Below are positions 5,100 to 42,093 of a stretch of 64,000 bases of DNA, piece by piece. Numbering within the stretch: the first letter of the stretch is position 1; each line of letters opens with the position of its first letter. The notes under the pieces are model-generated. The model saw nothing but the letters and a program-made list of their open reading frames with translations. It was not told the DNA's origin and did no database searches. The DNA is from Leptonema illini DSM 21528. GTDB taxonomy: Bacteria; Spirochaetota; Leptospiria; Leptospirales; Leptonemataceae. The DNA is taken from positions 1,509,989 to 1,573,988 of the forward strand of contig NZ_JH597773.1 of the NCBI RefSeq assembly GCF_000243335.1. The letters run 5' to 3'. A program made the translations under genes and the position numbers.

Positions 5100-5426
5100 A
5101 TGACAGATCTCTTCTCTGTAGAAATTCAAAACATAGCGCAGCGTCCCGTTCTGCGCATGGCAGGCGAGCTGACGGCAGAGGGGGAAAGTCGGCTGACGGC
5201 GGCCTTCGAAAGCCTGATCCAGGCCTCTCCCGAGCAGGTCGTTTTTGATTTTTCTGAGGTGAAGTACATCAATTCCGGCGGCATTTCCATTCTGCTCAAC
5301 CTGATTTCTCGCTCGCGCTTCGAGGGAAAAAAGATCCTGTTTGCCGGCCTGACGCGCCATCTGCGCAAGGTCGTCGAGATCGTCGGCATGGATGAATTCG
5401 TTCAGATCGTGGACCGTCTCGACTGA
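5100..5426 (+). CDS. STAS-domain anti-sigma factor antagonist
   Basis: A 108-residue single STAS domain of the SpoIIAA/RsbV type. Such proteins bind anti-sigma kinases when unphosphorylated and are switched off by phosphorylation of a serine. The phosphoacceptor loop is YINSGGISIL, with Ser59 as the likely target, preceded by VVFDFSEV, the central beta strand. I chose the ATG at 5100 because AGGAAAGG lies just upstream; a GTG four codons earlier is possible. No kinase or sigma factor is adjacent, so its partner is unknown; a GHKL ATPase gene at 51664-52407 and two SpoIIE-type phosphatase genes elsewhere in the window are candidates only by family logic. Confidence 0.85.
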   Translation: MTDLFSVEIQNIAQRPVLRMAGELTAEGESRLTAAFESLIQASPEQVVFDFSEVKYINSGGISILLNLISRSRFEGKKILFAGLTRHLRKVVEIVGMDEFVQIVDRLD

Positions 5427-21630: not shown

Positions 21631-23112
21631 TCAGGCCCTGCAGTACCGCTGAATCACGTCGATCAGCGCTTCTTTCGTAAAAGGCTTCGTAATATGAGCG
21701 GCAAAGCCGGCGCTTGCCGTGCGCCGCCGGTCTTCGTCTGAGGTGCGCCCTGTTAACGCTATGACAGGCGGCAGCGGACCGGTGATTTGAGCCTGGAGCT
21801 CTGCGAACGTCGCAAATCCGTCCATGCCTGGAATCTGCAAATCCAGCAGGATCAGATCAAATGAGTCTTTCTGGCAGGCGGCGACGGCCTCGGCACCCGA
21901 CTCCACAATCGTCAGGTCAAAAGGCTCGTCGGTAAGAAATCGCTCGATCAGCCATCGTTGTTCGGGGGTGTCTTCGACGATGAGGATGCGCCTTCGCCCT
22001 GTGGCTTCGGGCTTTTTATGTTCGGTGCCCTCAAACGAGACGGGTAGAACGACGGTAAACGTCGATCCTTTACCCTTTTCACTCTCCACCGATATGGTGC
22101 CACGGAACAATCGAACAAGCTCGCGTACGATATTCAAACCGAGCCCGCTGCCGCCGTATAGCCGTGCGATCGTGCCGTCTTCCTGAACGAATCGTTCAAA
22201 GAGGCGGTCTATGCGATCCTGCTCGATGCCGGTTCCCGTATCGATGACGTCGAACCGCAGAGCGTCGCTACCGAGTTTGCGAACATGCAGCGTTATACTT
22301 CCCTGCTCGGTGAATTTCAGCGCATTCGAAAGCAGGTTTGAAAGGATCTGACCTATGCGATAGGAATCCGAAGATATAACGGTCGGTACGTCGTCGTCGA
22401 TGATCAGATTCAGTTCCACATCCCGTCTGAAACGATGATGGCGGAACTGCTCGATCAGTGCGACAAGATGATCGTGAAGCGGAAAGGGAATGCGCTCGAC
22501 TTCCATGTGTCCCGATTCGACGCGCGAAAGGTCGAGCACCTCGTCGACGATACGCATGAGGTTATTCCCGGTCTGCGCAAGCACGTCGACAAGCTTCTGC
22601 TGATCGGCGTTAAGACTCGAATCTTGCAGAAGGTCGACGATGCCGAGCACCGTTCCAAGCGGATTGCGCAGTTCATGGCTGAGATTCGAAATAAAAGCAT
22701 CTTTGTTTTTATTGGATTGATGCAGCAATCCCTGAAACCGATCGCTGATGGCGATGAGCTTGTTCAGACGGTTCTGTAGTTTGCGGTATCGGATCAGCTG
22801 ACGCTCCGCCTGCGAAGCGAGATCGGCGTCGACCGTCTTCAGTCGCTCGACAAGCTGCTGCATGTCCTCCGTCGCCGCCTCGTTAACCGGAGCCCCCGCT
22901 TTTTCAGGAGGTTGCAGTCGTTCGGATTGATAGAGATCGCTGATAAAGAGCGTGCGGTAGAGCTTGCGGTTCAGTGTGCGGTAGGCCTCGGCCAGGGCTC
23001 TGTACTCGGCCAGTATATCAAAATCTTCCGGGCCGTTCAGCACCTCGTCGATGCGAAAACGGACGGCATCCTCCGTTTCCTGTTTAATGTAGGAGGAGCG
23101 CTGAGGCTTCAT
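21631..23112 (-). CDS. Hybrid histidine kinase with C-terminal receiver
   Basis: A 493-residue cytoplasmic kinase with no membrane segment. A coiled N-terminal region (about 1-135) is followed by HisKA with the phosphoacceptor in FISNLSHELRNPLG (His near 147) and the GHKL ATPase with DTGTGIEQDRID and GGSGLGLNIVREL. The C-terminal receiver (about 375-490) has phosphoacceptor aspartate in LILLDLQIPGMDG (near 422) and lysine in AHITKPFTKEAL. It takes no signal that can be seen from sequence, so input probably comes through the N-terminal coil or a partner. The ATG overlaps the siaC stop by 4 bp, which ties it to the sia operon, in the place where Pseudomonas has the cyclase siaD. Confidence 0.9.
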   Translation of the reverse strand: MKPQRSSYIKQETEDAVRFRIDEVLNGPEDFDILAEYRALAEAYRTLNRKLYRTLFISDLYQSERLQPPEKAGAPVNEAATEDMQQLVERLKTVDADLASQAERQLIRYRKLQNRLNKLIAISDRFQGLLHQSNKNKDAFISNLSHELRNPLGTVLGIVDLLQDSSLNADQQKLVDVLAQTGNNLMRIVDEVLDLSRVESGHMEVERIPFPLHDHLVALIEQFRHHRFRRDVELNLIIDDDVPTVISSDSYRIGQILSNLLSNALKFTEQGSITLHVRKLGSDALRFDVIDTGTGIEQDRIDRLFERFVQEDGTIARLYGGSGLGLNIVRELVRLFRGTISVESEKGKGSTFTVVLPVSFEGTEHKKPEATGRRRILIVEDTPEQRWLIERFLTDEPFDLTIVESGAEAVAACQKDSFDLILLDLQIPGMDGFATFAELQAQITGPLPPVIALTGRTSDEDRRRTASAGFAAHITKPFTKEALIDVIQRYCRA

Positions 23113-23480
23113 GACTCGCCCGGCACGATATCAAAGGGCATCGTAAACTCTTCTTTGAATTCTTCGGCCAGCTCTCGCGATCGTGGATTCTCGGAATCGA
23201 AACGCCAGACGACGCCCGTCTTCACACCGGCCTGATGTCCTTCGTCCAGTATATCAAGCATATCAAGCACGCATTTCGTCGAGCTGCTGTTCATGTAGCT
23301 GATGTTAATATCGATTCGGATGTCTTTTTTTTCGTCTACGAGAGCGCGCAGCCAGCGCACGACGGGCGTGTAGATCTCAAACGAATTCTCGGGATACGAT
23401 TCTCCCTCGATAAAGACCGTTCCCTCTCTATAGAAGATGGAAGGTGTGGAGGCCGTTTTTGTCACTTCCGGAAAATCCAT
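23109..23480 (-). CDS. siaC: SiaC-type regulatory phosphoprotein (DUF1987)
   Basis: A 123-residue protein matching the SiaC family. FIEGESYPENSFEIYTPVVR and NISYMNSSSTKCVLDMLD are the two signatures; the threonine in the SSSTK segment is the region phosphorylated by SiaB in Pseudomonas. VVWRFDSENPRSRELAEEF closes the domain. In P. aeruginosa unphosphorylated SiaC binds and activates the diguanylate cyclase SiaD; here the downstream gene is a histidine kinase. I chose the ATG at 23480 because GAGGA lies 7 bp upstream; ATG 23504 is possible. It lies 45 bp after the stop of the broken siaB gene. Confidence 0.88.
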   Translation of the reverse strand: MDFPEVTKTASTPSIFYREGTVFIEGESYPENSFEIYTPVVRWLRALVDEKKDIRIDINISYMNSSSTKCVLDMLDILDEGHQAGVKTGVVWRFDSENPRSRELAEEFKEEFTMPFDIVPGES

Positions 23481-23826
23481 GCAGCAATCCTCTTCAGTTA
23501 TCATAAATTCTCATATAAAAGCGGTCAGACTGAAAAAATCGTAGCGATCGTCGACCGGCCGGATGTTTTATATTCCATATTCGACGACGTTTTTCTCGCA
23601 ATGTCTATCAGGCCGATGCCCGCTCCTCTTGCCCCTTCGGGTCGCTCGCTGCGCAGCTGTTTCTTATACAGGGCCTTCAAATCGTCGGCATTCATGGCGT
23701 TGATCTGTTCGATGCGCTCTTTCAGGGGCTGAACGTCATCTTTTAGAATGTAGTTGCCCGATGTGACGGCATGGGTCTCGTCTTTGCGAGCGACAACGAC
23801 GATCGTGCTGCTTAACTCGCCGGGCG

Positions 23827-23864
23827 GAAGCTGCGACTATGTCCCAGTGATAGTTAGACTTTGA
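23827..23864. repeat. Target duplication and terminal inverted repeat, low-coordinate end of the IS
   Basis: GAAGCTGC (23827-23834) is the duplicated target, followed by the inverted repeat beginning GACTATGTCCC. Its counterpart is at 25183-25220. Confidence 0.93.
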
Positions 23865-25212
23865 GGCAGGACCCACTGAATGCATCCTATGCCGAGATCC
23901 GCTCGTCAATCTTTTTATCCAGGAAGGTGTTTAAGAACTCATGGATATGAGTGTATGACCGCACCTTACGGAATTGTTCCTCCTGTGATAGCAGGAGACT
24001 ACCGACCCATCGGAGCACCTGGTCTGTCTGAGGCCTTGACCGTTTAACCCGGTTAAGCTGAGATCTGGGATTCGAGAATGCCGAATCGATCAGATTGGTT
24101 GTGTAAAAGGATGTTCTCAATTTCGGCGGCATATTGATGCGATGCAGCGTTAACAGTGCCTCTAAACCCTCCTGAAGACTCTGAGAGGCACTGTAGCTGA
24201 TGGATTCGAGCCATGATAGAACGGACCGCATCTCGCTTGCGACATCTTCGTAACTGTTAGCGCTGAATGCCTGCTTGTATCTCTTGCAGAATTCTGCATG
24301 ATACTTCCGTGGGAGCTTGGCAAGAACATTTCTCTGTTTATGAAGGTAGCAGAGTTGGATCTCTGCCTTCTTTCCGAAGAACTCTCTGGCCGCTTTTTCA
24401 AGAGCCTTTGATCCATCCATGACGACAAGCACACGATCTGTGAAGCGGATATCACGGCTCTCGATTGATTGAAGGACACTGAGTGCGCTATCAGCATTCT
24501 CTGTAGACCCCTCAGAAATGCCCAGAAAATGCTTGTTTCCGGCCGTATCGACCCCGAGAGCAACGATTACGACAGAGCCGCCGAATACGATGCCATCAAG
24601 AACAATACACCAGAATGTCTGATCAGGAAACCTGCGTGAATTCAAATGATTGAGCGACTCACGGCTGGACTTCACAAACTCCCGCGAAACCGCACTCCGC
24701 GAAAGGCCGAGAGAGGCTTCTGTCTTTCTCAGCGTCTTTTCATAGTTCCGGGTGCTGATGCCTGCCAGCATCAGGCGCTCAACATGCTCGCGAAGATCAG
24801 AGCGATCCTGAAGGATCTCATATCGCTCCAGCTTCACTTCCTTGCCATTGCTTCGAGCTCTGGGCCTCTGGATGGCCACCCTTTCACCATCGAGCACAAT
24901 GGAACCACGCTGGCTGCCGCCTCGATGGGCAAGACCACGGCCTCTCTTATGCTCCCCTGTCTTGCCGCATAACGTTTCGATTTCTTCGAGAATCAAAGCT
25001 CCTACGTAACCGAGTGCAAATTCGCGCACTCGAGCATCGAGGCTGGTTCGAATATAATCCCGAAAACCTTCGGCCGTAAGGCTTTGTGTTTGACTGGTTT
25101 CTGCCCGTTCGTTCTTCTTCATATGGAACCCTCCGTAAGGGAATGTGGTGTTCGGCCCATTTTGGGCCAGGGTTCCGCCTTTTCAAACTCTAACTAAATT
25201 CGGGACATAATC
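23835..25212 (-). mobile_element. IS256-family insertion sequence, 1378 bp
   Basis: The element has imperfect terminal inverted repeats (30 bp, 23 identical), each starting GAxTATGTCCC with TAGTTAGA further in, at 23835-23864 and 25183-25212. It is flanked on both sides by the 8-bp target duplication GAAGCTGC (23827-23834 and 25213-25220). It carries one transposase gene on the same strand as the interrupted operon. The 8-bp duplication and single transposase fit IS256. The exact duplication and uninterrupted transposase suggest a recent insertion. Confidence 0.95.
23887..25122 (-). CDS. IS256-family (Mutator-type) transposase
   Basis: A full-length 411-residue transposase. The first catalytic aspartate is Asp176 (CIVLDGIVFGG), the second Asp236 (VLVVMDGSKALEKAA), followed by the family block QLCYLHKQRNVLAKLP. 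In most members the third acidic residue is Glu in TTNxIES; here the segment reads TTNLIDSAFSNPRSQL, so an aspartate (Asp346) stands in its place. A zinc-less N-terminal DNA-binding region precedes the catalytic core. GGAGG lies 8 bp upstream of the ATG. It is read in the same direction as the sia operon. Confidence 0.93.
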   Translation of the reverse strand: MKKNERAETSQTQSLTAEGFRDYIRTSLDARVREFALGYVGALILEEIETLCGKTGEHKRGRGLAHRGGSQRGSIVLDGERVAIQRPRARSNGKEVKLERYEILQDRSDLREHVERLMLAGISTRNYEKTLRKTEASLGLSRSAVSREFVKSSRESLNHLNSRRFPDQTFWCIVLDGIVFGGSVVIVALGVDTAGNKHFLGISEGSTENADSALSVLQSIESRDIRFTDRVLVVMDGSKALEKAAREFFGKKAEIQLCYLHKQRNVLAKLPRKYHAEFCKRYKQAFSANSYEDVASEMRSVLSWLESISYSASQSLQEGLEALLTLHRINMPPKLRTSFYTTNLIDSAFSNPRSQLNRVKRSRPQTDQVLRWVGSLLLSQEEQFRKVRSYTHIHEFLNTFLDKKIDERISA

Positions 25213-25220
25213 GAAGCTGC
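25183..25220. repeat. Terminal inverted repeat and target duplication, high-coordinate end of the IS
   Basis: The inverted repeat ends GGGACATAATC at 25212 and is followed by the second copy of GAAGCTGC (25213-25220). Confidence 0.93.
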
Positions 25221-25493
25221 CTTTCGATGATGTAATTGCGCGCGTTCTGCGTCAGTTCGATATAAATCGAGAAAACATCAGAGATTGCCGCCTTCGTCAC
25301 ATTCTCATTATCGAGGTGATTGCGAATCGCTATGCCTATCTCTTCGAGGATGCTGTGCGAGAACGGGCCGTTAAAGCAGATCAGGATATTACTGTCGTTG
25401 AATTCTTTCTTTATCTGAAAAAGATCCATGCCATCCTCACTCTTCTTTTTTCAGCCATCTCTATTCTTTCGGGCAATCGCACTCGGCCTTTCA

Positions 25494-27512
25494 TCACAGC
25501 CTGAAGCCGATCAGCGTCTGATCGTCCCGCTGCCTGTAGTCGCCTCTGTATTCACGCAGAGTCTGCTCAAAGGCCGACTGCTGCTCCGGCATGGGCCGGT
25601 GACCGTTCTCACGGATCATCTCCTGAAACCTCTGCGAGCCGAAGCCGAAGCCTTTGCTTCCTCCAGGCTCGTCGAGAATTCCGTCTGTCGTAATATAGAA
25701 CGATGATCCCGAAGGATTCCCTATCGTCAACGCCTGATACGCAAAATCCGTCGATGAGCTGCGATAGCCAATTCTCTGAATGTCGCCTCTATGTTCCAGC
25801 ACGTTACCGTCCCGGAACTCGAAAAGCGACAGGCCGGCCCCTGAATAGGAAAGCCCTTTCGACTGCCTGTCGATGACGCACAATCCGATGTCCAGCCCCG
25901 CGTCGATCTCTTTGAAGCGCAGGGTCTCTTTCATGATGCGATTCAGCTCAGAGAGCATCGTAGCCGGGTTCAGCTGCGGCGACGACTCTACGATATGATT
26001 GAGCGCCGAGGCCGCCGTCATCGTCATAAAGGCGCCGGGCACGCCATGCCCCGTGCAATCGACGACAGCAAGCACGATGCTGGAATCGGTAAGGCGAAGG
26101 TAATGGAAATCGCCGCCGACCACAAGCTTCGGGCGATTGAGAAGCAGATAATCCGAAAAGCAAGATTCAAAGAGCGCCGTATCGGGCAGGATCGACGACT
26201 GGATCATCGACGCATAACGAATGCTTTCGTCGATCTCCTTCTGCGATTGCCTGAGGGCCGTATTTGCGCTTTGCAGTTCGGTCGTACGCTGCTGCACCTT
26301 TGCCTCGAGGTCGGTCGTGTATTCCTGGATGGTGCCGGCCATCGAGTTAAACGAAGACGTTAGCCTTCCGATCTCGTCGCTGCGTTCGACGGGCAGCCGG
26401 ATGCCGTAACGACCGGCGGCCACCTCAGCCGTCGCTTCGGTCATGCGCTCCAGCGGACGAAGTACCAGGCGATGCATGAGCAAGCCGATAAGCACGCTCA
26501 AGAAAAGAAGCGAAATAAAGAGGCCGATCAGAATCGGCAGAAACTCCCGAACGCTGATCACACGCCCCACATCAAGGATAACGACGTTATACCAGCCAAG
26601 ATGCCGCATATACGAAACGGCGGCCACCTGGGTGCGTCCTTTCAGCGTAACGGGAAAGGTGATAACGTCATCCTGTTCGTTTTCGTTTTGCCCGATCTCG
26701 ATCGTCTCGCTGCCGCTCTTTTTGTATTCGGCGGCATCGGCCCGCAGCCTTTCGATCGCCGCTTTCAGCTCTTCGCCGAAGCGCCCCTGCTCCATCACCG
26801 TAAAGATCGTGATCTTATCGGCATCAAGGGCCTGGGCGTTATGCAGAACGATCTCATGATCTTCTGAGGCCTGGATAACGCCTTTTTCGTCGACGAGATA
26901 GACCGAGATACCGGGCTCCTGATTACCGATGATCTCTTCGAGAATGACCGTGATGTTGACGCCTGATCCGACGACGGCGATCTTACGGCCTGCATGATCG
27001 CGCATGATCGTATTGATCCAGACCTTCGTGCGGTGAACGAGCAGATCTTTATCGGTATTCAGAGCGAACGTATCGACGTTCTTCATCGTCTGAAAGAACC
27101 AGCGATGCTCGGGAACTTCGGCCTTCAGAGTGGCGACGACGGGTCTGCTTCCTCCTGTGAACGTATAATAGTTCTGCGATGAGGCGATCGTTAAGAAGGA
27201 CTCTTTATCGCGGGCCAGCTTGCGATAGCCTTCGATCTGAAGATAGGCCGTTTTTCGAGCCTCTTCGTTATTCTCGTCAAGCACCCATCGCCGGATCACA
27301 TAATCGTCGGCCAGGCGGCCCGATAAGACGACCTCTCTGTCGATAAGCGTTAGCAGGCGGTTCTTCTGGATCTGCGCCTCTTTGGCGGCGAAGCGCTCGG
27401 CAAAGCCGGCGATCACGTCCCCCGTTACCGAATAGAAAAGATAGACGGTTCCCAGACCGACCAGGATATAGAGGACGCTGACGACAAGCAGGAAGCGCGT
27501 GCGCAGTTTCAT
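25494..27512 (-). CDS. siaA: SiaA-like membrane-bound SpoIIE/PP2C phosphatase
   Basis: A 672-residue sensor phosphatase. A first membrane helix (about 7-28), a large extracytoplasmic region to about 325 with a Cache-like fold, a second helix (FLPILIGLFISLLFLSVLIG), a HAMP linker (VLRPLERMTEATAEVAAG) and a coiled coil. The C-terminal SpoIIE domain starts near 440 with RYASMIQSSILPD; metal ligands are in VVGGDFHYL and VDCTGHGVPGAFM. SiaA in Pseudomonas dephosphorylates SiaC in response to an outside signal. It heads the siaA-siaB-siaC-kinase operon, 64 bp before siaB. AAGGGGATGC precedes the ATG. Confidence 0.88.
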   Translation of the reverse strand: MKLRTRFLLVVSVLYILVGLGTVYLFYSVTGDVIAGFAERFAAKEAQIQKNRLLTLIDREVVLSGRLADDYVIRRWVLDENNEEARKTAYLQIEGYRKLARDKESFLTIASSQNYYTFTGGSRPVVATLKAEVPEHRWFFQTMKNVDTFALNTDKDLLVHRTKVWINTIMRDHAGRKIAVVGSGVNITVILEEIIGNQEPGISVYLVDEKGVIQASEDHEIVLHNAQALDADKITIFTVMEQGRFGEELKAAIERLRADAAEYKKSGSETIEIGQNENEQDDVITFPVTLKGRTQVAAVSYMRHLGWYNVVILDVGRVISVREFLPILIGLFISLLFLSVLIGLLMHRLVLRPLERMTEATAEVAAGRYGIRLPVERSDEIGRLTSSFNSMAGTIQEYTTDLEAKVQQRTTELQSANTALRQSQKEIDESIRYASMIQSSILPDTALFESCFSDYLLLNRPKLVVGGDFHYLRLTDSSIVLAVVDCTGHGVPGAFMTMTAASALNHIVESSPQLNPATMLSELNRIMKETLRFKEIDAGLDIGLCVIDRQSKGLSYSGAGLSLFEFRDGNVLEHRGDIQRIGYRSSSTDFAYQALTIGNPSGSSFYITTDGILDEPGGSKGFGFGSQRFQEMIRENGHRPMPEQQSAFEQTLREYRGDYRQRDDQTLIGFRL

Positions 27513-37093: not shown

Positions 37094-38248
37094 ATGACGC
37101 AGTATTTCTTTTCCTGTGGAGCGGGCTCGCATCAGCTGCCGCTTCTTCTGGCCGCCCGCAGCCTGGGCCTCGGTGTGGCCGCCGCCGATCTGAACGAGGC
37201 GGCTCCGGGCTTTGAGCTAACCGACCGCTCTTTTGTCAGTTCGATTCTCGACCGTACCGCTCTCATCGATGCCATCGAAGGCGACGACGACCTTCGCCGC
37301 CATCTTGCCGGGGTCGGATGCCGTTCGTATGGCAAGGCCGTTGAGATCGCCGCATCGCTGGCGCGACATTTCTCGTTGCCGGCAAATCCGCATCGGTCGC
37401 TTCGCTTCTTTCGTAACAAAGCCCTATACAAAAAGACGATGCAGGACTGGCAGATCCCTGTGCCTGCCGACGTAAAGCATCCGGCAAAGTATATCGTGCG
37501 TCCGGCCGACGGACATGCGAAAGAAGGCCTGCAGATCGTCGAGCTGCCCGAGTCTCTTCTGGCCGAGACGTCTCCTGCGAAATCAATTACGAAGCCCTCA
37601 GCAAGGCCGTTCATCGAGCCGTTTATCGAAGGCAGCGAGTGTATTCTGCTTGGATTGATCGTGCAGGGAACGTTTTATCCGGTGCTTTTAAGCGATCGGT
37701 TCCGCAACGCCGACTTCTCGGATCGCATGCACGTCTTTCCGTCATCGCTTCCGGGCGGCGTGCGCTATGAGATGGTCGAACACTGTCGCCGCATCGTGCG
37801 TCGCAGTGGCCTTGAAAACGGCCCCTTTCTCGCCGAGTTCATCGTCGCCGGCAACACGCCCTACCTTGTCGAATGCGCCCCAGAAGTCGGAGGCGAGTTT
37901 CTTGCCGACGATATGATTCCTGCCGTTACAGGCCTGCCCTATTTCGAGATGCTGGTGCATATCTACTGCGGCACCGACAGCGAGCGCATGCGGCGTCTCT
38001 TAATCGAGCATCTGGAGCGAGAACGCTCGCAGGCGATGGTCATCGGCTTTCTACCGCCGACCTCTGCCGATGCAGGTCCGCTGCTCTTCTCGCCCTCGCT
38101 CTACCGACATCCGGGCTTTTACTCCGCACGCCCCCTGCCTGTTCTACCGGGTCAGAGGCCTAACGCAAGGCGCCCCGGCGTGATCGCCCTCACGGGTCAT
38201 GTCTCGGAGCGCGACAGACTGATGCAAGACATGGAAGGCTTTTTGTGA
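37094..38248 (+). CDS. ATP-grasp domain protein
   Basis: A 384-residue protein with an N-terminal PreATP-grasp Rossmann part ([20 protein letters not shown]) and an ATP-grasp ligase domain. Features: [37 protein letters not shown] (the nucleotide lysine region), [17 protein letters not shown] and the metal site [20 protein letters not shown]. Members join a carboxylate to an amine or thiol using ATP. The substrate is unknown. It ends in a 4-bp overlap (GTGA) with a SAM methyltransferase, so the two act together, perhaps in making or decorating a small molecule or cell-surface compound. Confidence 0.85.
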
Positions 38249-38895
38249 ATCTACGAACCCCCTGGAATCGACACTATCAGACCGAGAAATCGCGCCAGCT
38301 GTATCCCGATGAGAATCTCGTACGCCTGCTTGCAGCAGCTCGAAGCGAACTCAATCCAGAGAACGCATCGGCCCTGGACTACGGCTTCGGCTCGGGTCGT
38401 CATTTGTATCTTTTACAGGAGATGAGATTCGGCCGCATCGCCGGCTGCGAGATCAGCGAAGTCGCCTGTGAACAGGGCCGCCAGTCGTTTCCTGAAATGG
38501 ATCTGCGGCTTGTAACCGAGGCCGAGATTACCGGGGCTGTCATTACCGAGGCCGAGAGCAAACTGCCCTTCGACGATGCAAGCTTTGATGTCATCGTCTG
38601 CTGGGGCGTGCTTCATTATCTCTCAGACTCCGGACGCATGCGTCTGCTTGAAGAGTTCTCGCGATTGTTAACGCCCCGCGGCCTTTTTGTCGGGACGCTT
38701 CGCTCAAATCGAGATACGCACTTCGCGCATTCCGACGTTTCCGATGCAAGTATGACGCTTTTCTCAGAAGAGGATGCGCGGACGCTGCTCGACCGCTTCT
38801 TTAAAGACGTGGAGCTCGGCCACATGGAACGAACTCCGATTGGAAAGCTTGACCAGCGCATCGCTCACTGGTTCTTTCGCGCACGGCGGAGTTGA
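38245..38895 (+). CDS. Class I SAM-dependent methyltransferase
   Basis: A 216-residue methyltransferase with motif I ALDYGFGSGRHLYLL, motif II/III IAGCEISEVACEQG and motif IV DVIVCWGVLHYLSDS, then RGLFVGTLRSNRD. The fold is complete, but the acceptor cannot be read from the sequence. It starts at a GTG that overlaps the ATP-grasp stop, so the two genes are translationally coupled. The stop codon lies inside the first of the palindromes at 38893-38907. Confidence 0.88.
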   Translation: MNLRTPWNRHYQTEKSRQLYPDENLVRLLAAARSELNPENASALDYGFGSGRHLYLLQEMRFGRIAGCEISEVACEQGRQSFPEMDLRLVTEAEITGAVITEAESKLPFDDASFDVIVCWGVLHYLSDSGRMRLLEEFSRLLTPRGLFVGTLRSNRDTHFAHSDVSDASMTLFSEEDARTLLDRFFKDVELGHMERTPIGKLDQRIAHWFFRARRS

Positions 38896-39119: not shown

Positions 39120-41189
39120 ATGAGCCCGACTGACCTTGAAGCTTTTCGAAACGAGCGGGGGTCCATCGACTTCAGCCGTCCGGTTGAAATCGCTCCTGAT
39201 ATCTTCTGGGTGGGTAACGTTCTTGAAAACGACCCCTTTCAATGCCATCCCTACTTCATTCGCAACGGAAAGAACTCCGTGCTTATCGACCCGGGCTCGA
39301 TGCTACAGCTCGAAAAGATCATCGAGAAGATCACGATGGCCTGTGATCTTTCTGACGTTCGCTACATTATTCTGCATCACCAGGACCCCGATCTCTGCGC
39401 CGCCGTGCCGCATCTCGAAAAGCTGATCAAGCGGCCCGATCTCGAGATCATCACACACAGCCGCATGTCGGTTCTGATCAAGCATTACGGCATCGACGCT
39501 CCTTATTATAATATCGATCAGCATAACTTCGTCATCGACGCCGGCGGGCGCACGCTTCGTTTTTATACGACGCCTTACTGTCATTCGCCCGGCGCCTTTG
39601 TCACCTATGATGAAACGTCGAAGGTGCTTTTTTCGTCTGACATTTTCGGCGGTCTTGAGGATTCCTGGCATTTCTATGCCGACGAGAACTATTTCAAGAG
39701 CATAGAAGGCTTTCACATGGCCTACATGCCCAGCCGCGATATTCTGAACTATGCTCTTCGCAAGATCGAGGCCCTTGATCTTGAGCTCATCGCTCCGCAG
39801 CATGGCTCGGTCATCCGCAAGCCCTATATCGCACCGCTCATCGAGCAGATGAAGCAGATGGAATGCGGCCTCTATATCGATCGCAAATACGGCAAGGATC
39901 TTCTTCGCACCATCGAAAAGCTGAACAATCTGCAGACGGAGTTCGAGGTTTCGCTCGACGAGATCAAGAATCTCAAACGGCGCCAGGACGGAGACTACTT
40001 CCTCACCTCGTTGCTCATGCGACCGCTGCTCAAGAACTTTAACAAAAGCGACGACGTAACGACGGATTTCGTCATCATACAGAAAAAGTCGTTTCTATTT
40101 AAGGATCGCCATTACCAGCTCGGCGGCGACCTCTGCGTCAGCGGCAACATGCTCTTCAACGGGCAGCGCTTTACCCTGTTCTTTAACGGCGATGCGATGG
40201 GCAAGTCCGTACAGGGAGCGGGCGGCGCCCTTGTGATGGGAACGGTGCTTAACTCTATCATCGCACGCTCGGCGGGTAACGATCGATCGCTTGACGTCGC
40301 TCCCGAACAATGGCTGCGCGAAACCTACGACGAGATACAGACGCTTTTTCTGTCGTTTGACGGGGCGATGATGGTTTCGGGCATCCTCGGCCTTCTCAAT
40401 GAAGAATCGGGCGAGCTGCTCTTTGTAAACGCCGAGCATCCGTTCCTGATCCTCTATCGTAACGGACAGGCACAGTTCATCGACGAAGAGCTTACGCTGC
40501 GCAAGTTCGGTAGCCCATCGGAGCTCGACTTCTTTATTCACAGCTTTCAACTGCAACCGGGCGACGTTCTTATCTCGGGATCAGACGGCAAAGACGACCT
40601 AAATTTACGGCCGGGCGAAACAGTTCCACAGATGAATCAGGACTACCGGCTCATCCTCAAGATCATAGAAAAGTCAAAGGGCAACCTGCGACGTATGGTG
40701 AAATCGATCTTCGCCGTCGGCGAGATCACCGACGACCTTTCTCTTCTGCGTGTAGGCTTCAAAGAGCCGGCGCATAAAAGAGAGCCTCAGGATCTGACCG
40801 ATGATCTGATCTATGAGCTTCAGATCTCTAACCACATCCGTAACCGAAGCTTCTCAAAGGCCCTTGACCTGATGGAAGGGCCGTCTGAAAAGCAGTCTCC
40901 CGAGATCCTCTTTTACAGGGGATTCTGCTTTATTCAGGAAAAACGTTACCTGAAGGCCCTGAAATATCTGACGAGAGCCATCCAGCTCAAGCCCGATTAT
41001 TTCAGAGCCTTGAAGTATGCGGGCATCGCGCATTACCGGCTGGGTAATCTGCGCAAATGTGAGAGCTACTGGAATCAGGCCCGCGCCATCCGGCCCGATG
41101 ATTCTTTAATCGAGAGCAAATACCCCGAGGTCATCAAGCGCCTCGAACGACAGAAGGTGCTTCTTGGCCGCAAGCAGATGAACGAATAA
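39120..41189 (+). CDS. ODP (di-iron oxygen-binding) - SpoIIE phosphatase - TPR protein
   Basis: A 689-residue three-part signalling protein. Residues 20-245 form a metallo-beta-lactamase-fold ODP domain, as in flavodiiron proteins. Its metal set is LHHQDPD (His86, His87, Asp89, Asp91), CHSPGAF (His155), SSDIFGG (Asp174) and PQHGS (His228). A coiled coil (255-290) leads to a SpoIIE/PP2C domain with QLGGDLCV (Asp337) and FNGDAMGK (Asp358), then PGDVLISGSDGKDDL. The last 100 residues hold about three TPR-like helical repeats (YRGFCFIQEKRYLKALKYL, LKYAGIAHYRLGNLRKCESY). It probably senses oxygen or redox state and acts on a phosphoprotein such as an STAS or SiaC protein. No ribosome site is clear; start ATG 39120. 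Confidence 0.85.
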   Translation: MSPTDLEAFRNERGSIDFSRPVEIAPDIFWVGNVLENDPFQCHPYFIRNGKNSVLIDPGSMLQLEKIIEKITMACDLSDVRYIILHHQDPDLCAAVPHLEKLIKRPDLEIITHSRMSVLIKHYGIDAPYYNIDQHNFVIDAGGRTLRFYTTPYCHSPGAFVTYDETSKVLFSSDIFGGLEDSWHFYADENYFKSIEGFHMAYMPSRDILNYALRKIEALDLELIAPQHGSVIRKPYIAPLIEQMKQMECGLYIDRKYGKDLLRTIEKLNNLQTEFEVSLDEIKNLKRRQDGDYFLTSLLMRPLLKNFNKSDDVTTDFVIIQKKSFLFKDRHYQLGGDLCVSGNMLFNGQRFTLFFNGDAMGKSVQGAGGALVMGTVLNSIIARSAGNDRSLDVAPEQWLRETYDEIQTLFLSFDGAMMVSGILGLLNEESGELLFVNAEHPFLILYRNGQAQFIDEELTLRKFGSPSELDFFIHSFQLQPGDVLISGSDGKDDLNLRPGETVPQMNQDYRLILKIIEKSKGNLRRMVKSIFAVGEITDDLSLLRVGFKEPAHKREPQDLTDDLIYELQISNHIRNRSFSKALDLMEGPSEKQSPEILFYRGFCFIQEKRYLKALKYLTRAIQLKPDYFRALKYAGIAHYRLGNLRKCESYWNQARAIRPDDSLIESKYPEVIKRLERQKVLLGRKQMNE

Positions 41190-41229: not shown

Positions 41230-42093
41230 ATGGAAGGTATGCCGTGCCCCGTCTGCCAGTCGCAGTTTGAGGCCCTCTACGAAATCGAGAGGTTCTCGCC
41301 GCCTCTTGAGATTATTCGCTGCCCTTCGTGCGGTCTGCAGAGGCAGGCAAGATTCCCGGCCGATCTCAGGGCGCTCTACGGCGAAGAATATTATACGGGA
41401 CAGGCCGATTACAGCTACGAAGACGAGCGCCGGCAGGAGCCCTACTACGGCCACGTCTGGAGGGCGCGTCTTCGCACCATTCGCAGGCATGTTCGTCCGC
41501 CGGCCGCTTTGCTCGATGTAGGATGCAGCTTTGGCGGATTTGTTCAGGCGGCAACCAGGGCCGGCTTCACGGCAACAGGCGTCGATCTTTCGGACTATGC
41601 GGTGAGCGAAGGCCGGCGCCGGGGGCGTAACCTGATTCACGGCGATCTTACAGACGTTCGCGGACGATACGACGTGATCACGGCCATCGAAGTGCTCGAA
41701 CATCTGCCCGACCCGGCCGAAACCGCATCGCGCCTTTTTGAGCTTTTACGCCCGGGAGGACTTGTCGTATTACAGACGGCTAACTTTCTCGGTCGGCAGG
41801 CGATAAATGCCGGCGCCGACTATCATTACTATCTTCCCGGTCATCTGTTTTATTATTCGACGTATAACCTGCGCCTGCTTCTCGAACGGCACGGCTTTCA
41901 GCGAGTGCAATTTTATAGAGGCGTCGATTTCGGCCTGCTACCGAAACTGCTGAAGATGCGCGGAAACTTCAAAACGCTCACAGATTACCGGCGCATGATT
42001 CCGACCGCTCTCTATCATCTGAAAAGCCGGATCGCCTTCGGCGACTTTGCGCTCACCTCGTCGATGGTCTGCTACGCCCGAAAGCCTCGCTGA
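41230..42093 (+). CDS. Zinc-ribbon SAM methyltransferase
   Basis: A 287-residue protein that opens with a zinc-binding ribbon (MPCPVCQSQ and IIRCPSCGLQ) followed by YGEEYYTGQADYSYEDE and a class I methyltransferase fold: LLDVGCSFGGFVQ, ATGVDLSDYAVSEG, DVITAIEVLEHLPDP and RPGGLVVLQT. The same architecture is common in methyltransferases acting on sugars, lipids or lipid-linked intermediates in envelope synthesis. It follows the ODP-SpoIIE gene by 40 bp and may be cotranscribed with it. Start ATG 41230, or 41239. Confidence 0.82.
   Translation: MEGMPCPVCQSQFEALYEIERFSPPLEIIRCPSCGLQRQARFPADLRALYGEEYYTGQADYSYEDERRQEPYYGHVWRARLRTIRRHVRPPAALLDVGCSFGGFVQAATRAGFTATGVDLSDYAVSEGRRRGRNLIHGDLTDVRGRYDVITAIEVLEHLPDPAETASRLFELLRPGGLVVLQTANFLGRQAINAGADYHYYLPGHLFYYSTYNLRLLLERHGFQRVQFYRGVDFGLLPKLLKMRGNFKTLTDYRRMIPTALYHLKSRIAFGDFALTSSMVCYARKPR

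Follow-up and report, generated by a model that had tools for sequence, protein, structure and literature searches.

The ODPs studied so far have been reported as sensors of O2 and Fe. The title of Muok 2019 presents the T. denticola ODP as a sensor of Fe(II) and oxygen, and the titles of the deposited structures indicate that metal-loaded and apo ODPs take different forms. The solved ODPs of T. denticola (6qnm/6r9n) and T. maritima (6qrq/6qwo) are stand-alone proteins with an MBL fold and six metal ligands, which couple to a separate chemoreceptor. ODPs fused to signal-transduction domains have also been reported as a class (PMC7319448).

STAS proteins are the substrates of characterised PPM phosphatases of the SpoIIE/RsbU type (PMC11418112). 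RsbU, RsbP and P. aeruginosa RssB share a sensor-helix-PPM design, in which the sensor is an RsbT-binding domain, a PAS domain (RsbP) or a receiver (RssB), but none is an ODP. The STAS antagonist and anti-sigma kinase of RsbU/RsbP-type phosphatases are usually encoded nearby and, likewise, SiaC lies beside its phosphatase in the SiaA-SiaC system. RsbU is activated via a coiled-coil linker (eLife 2025, PMC12143880), and the same work proposes that sensors are exchanged between phosphatases, kinases and GGDEF proteins. The B. subtilis SpoIIE phosphatase coordinates Mn1 through Asp628, Asp746 and Asp795 and Mn2 through Asp610; Asp628 sits in a DGMGN motif and Asp795 in an EDD motif (PMC3517971).

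Here we describe a protein of Leptonema illini, an aerobic, non-sporulating spirochaete with a genome of 4,522,760 bases in 3 contigs (the main one of 4,325,094), in which an ODP is covalently joined to a SpoIIE phosphatase and TPRs. Judged from sequence, the fusion is real and conserved, carries two intact predicted active sites, and is a new sensor-output pairing of known parts. ODPs joined to other outputs have been described before, so what is new is the pairing with a phosphatase and not the kind of machine. The earlier note on this DNA knew of no described case of the pairing; likewise, searches of the open-access literature turned up no report of an ODP-SpoIIE protein.

Domain architecture and predicted active sites

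The fusion gene lies at 39120..41189 of the window, by which we mean the whole 64,000-nucleotide stretch of DNA analysed; the gene and all features described within it are on the plus strand. Its ORF starts with ATG and codes for 689 aa. The union of ODP, SpoIIE and TPR in one chain, first read from the letters in the earlier note, is borne out by Pfam, which places an ODP domain (PF19583) at residues 40–229 (39237..39806; E 1.8e-60), a SpoIIE domain (PF07228) at residues 352–546 (40173..40757; E 1.2e-22), and TPRs with the best TPR_2 match at residues 594–627 (E 9.8e-12) and repeats to ∼664. These E-values are far beyond chance and thus indicate a real fusion architecture. A chance frame or artefact is excluded, because the fusion recurs in ten further genomes of the family at 56–71% identity, six of them at full length, and orthologues across this range keep the whole architecture.

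The ODP match scores 204.5 bits against a curated cut-off of 27.2 and covers positions 1–194 of the 194-position profile. In a Foldseek search with the AF2 model, the T. maritima and T. denticola ODP structures were the top matches, with TM (target) of 0.79–0.84. Alignment to these structures (6qrq/6qwo and 6qnm/6r9n) identifies all six ligands: the His87-x-Asp89-x-Asp91 motif (39378..39392), His155 (39582..39584), Asp174 (39639..39641), and His228 (39801..39803). From established knowledge of flavodiiron proteins, we take Asp174 to be the bridging ligand. The six ligands are invariant in every orthologue covering the position, down to 56% overall identity; the earlier note had named ligand loss in close homologues as evidence that would count against it, and none was found. 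When the ODP parts of all retrieved relatives are aligned, a few of them truncated, 102 rows have the full HDDHDH set. The ligands are incomplete in five rows, which represent four kinds of spirochaete proteins (L054, L055, L056/L057, and L058). The earlier list of ligands contained a seventh residue, His86. Six of the seven match the solved ODPs, but the position of His86 is Thr or Ser there, so His86 is excluded as a ligand. It is nevertheless kept in 94 of 107 assessable ODPs of signalling fusions and, from this pattern of conservation, may be a second-shell residue.

Like the solved ODPs, the fusion lacks the final His of the HxExDH motif and a flavodoxin domain. The histidine that supplies a seventh ligand in flavodiiron proteins is absent after the HxDxD motif both here, where the residue is Leu92, and in all assessable relatives, which contain Leu, Ile or Val. 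Pfam finds no flavodoxin domain in the fusion, which has SpoIIE and TPRs instead. The absence of both features indicates an ODP-type rather than an enzyme-type site.

The phosphatase fold begins at approximately residue 310, upstream of the Pfam match (81.2 bits against a cut-off of 25). Its metal aspartates, in the motifs GGD337, D358AMGK, SD489G, and TD538D, are invariant in the orthologues and in nine paralogues. By motif and order, rather than by superposition, Asp337 of the invariant GGD (40128..40130) is equivalent to Asp610 of SpoIIE, Asp358 of D-A/G-M-G-K (40191..40193) to Asp628 of DGMGN, Asp489 of SDG (40584..40586) to Asp746, and Asp538, the first aspartate of TDD (40731..40733), to Asp795 (comparison with PMC3517971). 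All four Mn-related aspartates of B. subtilis SpoIIE therefore have equivalents in the fusion, although SpoIIE is a membrane-anchored sporulation protein and L. illini does not sporulate. The best PPM structural match in Foldseek is the RssB phosphatase domain (3f79), with a TM (target) of 0.79. When the phosphatase module was searched on its own against the PDB by phmmer and profile, the one PPM match was weak (Rv1364c, E 0.01).

The C-terminal TPR/helical array spans residues 561–688 (40800..41183), where TPR_2, TPR_1 and TPR_19 matches coincide with AF2 helices; pLDDT is mostly 86–98 from residues 590 to 680. Many HAMP-type SpoIIE paralogues also carry TPRs. The repeats came with the SpoIIE module and are not special to the fusion.

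The helix between sensor and phosphatase

The AF2 model, run as a monomer from an 85-row alignment that covers both halves, has a mean pLDDT of 91.1 (an earlier nine-sequence model was poor, at 69.8). It contains one continuous helix of 49 residues, 255–303 (39882..40028), which links the ODP to the PPM fold as the linker does in RsbU/RsbP-type phosphatases. Local confidence drops to about 50–71 at residues 251–290, so the exact course of the helix is uncertain. After the solved ODPs, the next Foldseek match of the model is P. aeruginosa RssB, a receiver-helix-PPM protein, across 370 columns, and the linker helix aligns without gaps to the post-HAMP helix of the SpoIIE paralogues.

Linker lengths in related proteins point to a coiled coil. 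In 47 direct ODP-kinase fusions (L072, L073, L105, and 44 others), the distance from the conserved CG at the end of the ODP to the phospho-acceptor His is 44 (one protein), 51 (33), 58 (12), or 69 residues (one). Thus 46 of the 47 linkers are 44, 51 or 58 residues long, in steps of seven, though the counts are not independent, as most of the 51- and 58-residue linkers come from related kinases. The distance from HAMP to the phosphatase in SpoIIE paralogues is 48 (seven proteins) or 55 residues (15). A coiled coil predicts exactly such seven-residue steps, which back a coiled-coil relay as in RsbU. By analogy, a relay through the linker helix is plausible, and the fusion would fit the exchange of sensors among outputs proposed in PMC12143880.

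Distribution and evolutionary origin

The fusion is present in 11 of the 22 genomes of the window's family, two of them with a split ORF, and is absent from the class's 26 remaining genomes. Elsewhere in the phylum, matches cover the ODP half or the SpoIIE half and never both; two candidates were scored per genome there, so this absence is less firm than that within the class. Among the best 80 of 342 ODP relatives found by a contig search, seven Leptospiraceae/Spirochaetaceae MAG loci contain the fusion and the others encode different outputs, a survey that leaves room for rare ODP-SpoIIE fusions elsewhere. In two draft genomes (L020 in G211 and L021 in G062), the orthologue is encoded as two overlapping ORFs.

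Other ODP fusions reach a wide range of outputs. Pfam identifies HisKA-HATPase, PAS-HisKA, GAF-HisKA-REC-REC, GGDEF, PAS-GGDEF, GGDEF-REC, adenylate cyclase, and Trans_reg_C winged-helix outputs. For example, three Sulfurovum MAGs (L115, L118 and L140) encode proteins of 361–364 aa that join an ODP with all six ligands to an OmpR-type winged helix; from this composition they are apparently one-component ODP transcription factors. Stand-alone ODPs also occur beside signalling genes in genomes without the fusion. In one member of the family, the ODP adjoins genes for a PAS-Hpt-HATPase (CheA-like) kinase, a CheY-like protein, and CheX (L142:4278–7769), and in another it adjoins a similar PAS-Hpt-HATPase kinase (L143:2862–5635). 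In a close relative, a stand-alone ODP is found next to a cyclase gene (L144), and a T. denticola-type ODP is found next to a chemoreceptor gene (L147). Because ODPs are joined to so many outputs, or lie beside kinase, cyclase or chemoreceptor genes, we regard the domain as a general input module. The L. illini genome itself encodes one more ODP, with an adenylate cyclase domain as its fusion partner (L061:2933–4711, plus strand); on this evidence, di-iron signals of a single type may reach both cAMP and protein phosphorylation in this species.

The two halves of the fusion have different closest relatives. Among the matches listed, the closest ODPs outside the fusion clade (55–66% identity) belong to the Campylobacterota/Gammaproteobacteria ODP-histidine kinases and ODP-GGDEF proteins (L067–L140). 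These proteins share the N-terminal ODP and the linker start CGLYI...LLxTIxxL with the fusion, but their output is a kinase, a cyclase or a winged helix instead of a phosphatase. The closest phosphatase modules (40–52% identity) are those of the Leptospiria HAMP/Cache/7TM-SpoIIE-TPR phosphatases (L002–L008 and L022–L040), which share the coiled-coil entry and, in many cases, the C-terminal TPRs; their sensors are mostly of membrane type, whereas the fusion has a soluble di-iron domain.

Phylogenetic trees of the two halves agree on a single clade. In a tree of ODP domains sampled by similarity and rooted with two solved ODPs, the seven SpoIIE-fused sequences form one clade (99/96), which is nested among the Campylobacterota/Gammaproteobacteria fusions (97/97, then 98/85). 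The clade stands apart from most spirochaete ODPs, although long branches make the placement of the other spirochaete ODPs unsure, and belongs to a branch of signalling fusions distinct from the T. denticola and T. maritima ODPs. In the SpoIIE tree, the fusions again form one clade (100/99), within the Leptospiria HAMP-SpoIIE-TPR family (99/98). A single clade in both half-trees is most simply read as one event, in which a Campylobacterota-type ODP was placed onto a resident module. As read from these sequences, a soluble ODP took the place of a mainly membrane-bound sensor (HAMP, Cache or 7TM) on the SpoIIE-TPR module, and we infer that the transfer ran from the Campylobacterota type to the spirochaete module. 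We consider it slightly better than an even bet that the product is a covalent oxygen/iron-gated Ser/Thr phosphatase of the partner-switch type, under the direct control of a di-iron ODP that came from Campylobacterota-type kinases and was moved in register with the coiled coil of a spirochaete phosphatase.

Proposed mechanism, candidate partners and alternatives

We propose that the fusion is a soluble oxygen/iron sensor-phosphatase. Two chains would dimerise, and the state of the di-iron centre in each ODP (O2/peroxo-bound, reduced or iron-free) would report oxygen and/or iron. A change of state would be passed along the continuous coiled-coil helix (∼255–303) to the PPM switch helices, altering the manganese site and hence Ser/Thr phosphatase activity. 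The TPRs would help to dock a partner, and the likeliest class of substrate would be the phosphorylated form of an anti-sigma antagonist of STAS type whose gene lies elsewhere in the genome. The outcome, in a spirochaete that is aerobic, would be a partner switch that depends on oxygen or iron, arising where a Campylobacterota-type ODP replaced, once, the usual HAMP/Cache/7TM sensor of a resident SpoIIE-TPR module. We hold this account, from ODP state through helix to PPM activity on a STAS antagonist, to be reasonably probable. Through the fusion, the cell can probably turn a protein-phosphate signal on or off in response to oxygen or iron. We lean weakly, as a guess, towards a phosphatase that is activated on loss of the peroxo state, at low O2 or low Fe. 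Gating by NO, which the earlier note also suggested, finds no specific support; the sensing reported for studied ODPs is of O2 and Fe.

The ODP may instead sense iron availability, as the difference between metal-loaded and apo forms, with oxygen acting only indirectly. Both forms are represented in the structure titles cited above, the title of Muok 2019 names Fe(II) along with oxygen for the T. denticola ODP, and O2 is usually present for an aerobic host. Nonetheless, no first-shell ligand that a di-iron O2 site needs has been lost, and where flavodiiron proteins have their extra His, the residue is Leu, Ile or Val, which also holds for ODPs with a reported peroxo adduct. Sequence cannot separate the two signals; we regard sensing of iron alone as a minority possibility.

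The substrate is the second point at which the account could differ. The fusion is flanked by two predicted methyltransferase genes on the same strand: a class I SAM methyltransferase upstream (38245..38895) and a SAM methyltransferase with N-terminal CxxC pairs downstream (41230..42093), both named from Pfam and both with homologues in the same place at L018, L019/L066, and L021. This methyltransferase-fusion-methyltransferase order is common to two genera, with neighbours that are 35–48% identical, and the ORFs downstream of the fusion overlap in L018 and L019/L066. A functional link of the fusion to the flanking methyltransferases is possible. Neither the fusion here nor the orthologues whose flanks were read have a STAS, anti-sigma or SiaC gene next to them, and a motif scan of orthologue and paralogue flanks finds no adjacent STAS. 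The lack of a SiaC gene beside the phosphatase sets the fusion apart from the SiaA-SiaC system.

Candidate partners do occur elsewhere in the genome, which has 18 STAS matches, six HATPase_c_2 matches above the cut-off, one SiaC, and 25 SpoIIE matches. One of the 18 STAS matches is a solo STAS gene in the window (5145–5420, plus strand), ∼34 kb from the fusion. The only SiaC of the genome also lies in the window, at 23109–23504 (also placed at 23121–23462), ∼16 kb from the fusion and near another SpoIIE gene. It belongs to a row of minus-strand genes (21631–27512) that consists of a SiaA-like HAMP-SpoIIE phosphatase (25494–27512), an IS256-like transposase named by eye (23887–25122), SiaC, and a histidine kinase-receiver (21631–23112). 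The row seems, from its gene order, to be a Sia-type operon with an insertion element inside it; no SiaB-like kinase was seen within 21631–27512. The earlier suggestion of a STAS or SiaC partner is thus not indicated by the neighbourhood, as neither gene is adjacent and a SiaA-like phosphatase that goes with SiaC lies 2 kb from it.

The same relay could accordingly act on a non-STAS substrate, either another phosphoprotein recruited by the TPRs, e.g. one linked to the methyltransferases, or the single SiaC. The gene order shared by two genera, the overlapping downstream ORFs, the lack of a STAS neighbour in the flanks read, and the presence of SiaC in this window all speak for such a substrate. 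The methyltransferase order is, however, absent from the marine MAGs L062–L065, which have different neighbours, so it may reflect only descent; SiaC sits near a phosphatase of its own, and the targets of characterised phosphatases of this type are STAS proteins (PMC11418112). We judge a non-STAS substrate unlikely, with a STAS antagonist preferred.

Finally, the ODP may not act as a sensor. In other spirochaetes, ODP-cyclase and ODP-GGDEF proteins (L054–L058) have lost some or most of the di-iron ligands, and their sequences suggest ODP domains that function without a di-iron site. Such loss in treponeme fusions means that an ODP fusion need not act via metal, and the proteins concerned are nevertheless kept. 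The ODP of the L. illini protein could then be a dimerisation platform or a remnant, with the phosphatase controlled elsewhere, e.g. by TPR ligands. The invariance of all six ligands throughout the fusion clade makes this improbable. That the ODP is an enzyme (an O2 or NO reductase, or a metallo-hydrolase) borne by the phosphatase draws on its superfamily kinship with flavodiiron proteins and is the least probable reading, given that it lacks both the flavodoxin domain for electron delivery and the flavodiiron His (Leu92), and that the family is consistently fused to signalling outputs.

It is an open question how kinases, cyclases and phosphatases can all be driven by a single type of bacterial sensor; a modular coiled-coil toolkit was recently proposed in this context (PMC12143880). 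If the sensor-phosphatase account is true, the fusion would be the first phosphatase under ODP control and would illustrate that exchangeable sensor toolkit in nature. The ODP fusions provide a clean test set, with related sensors on a phosphatase, kinases, GGDEF, cyclase and winged-helix outputs, and the heptad-stepped linkers of the ODP-kinases are a ready set for tests of coiled-coil signalling. If the phosphatase is gated by O2 or iron, it would also give a first handle on how oxygen or iron is coupled to partner-switch signalling in the aerobic relatives of the Leptospiraceae.
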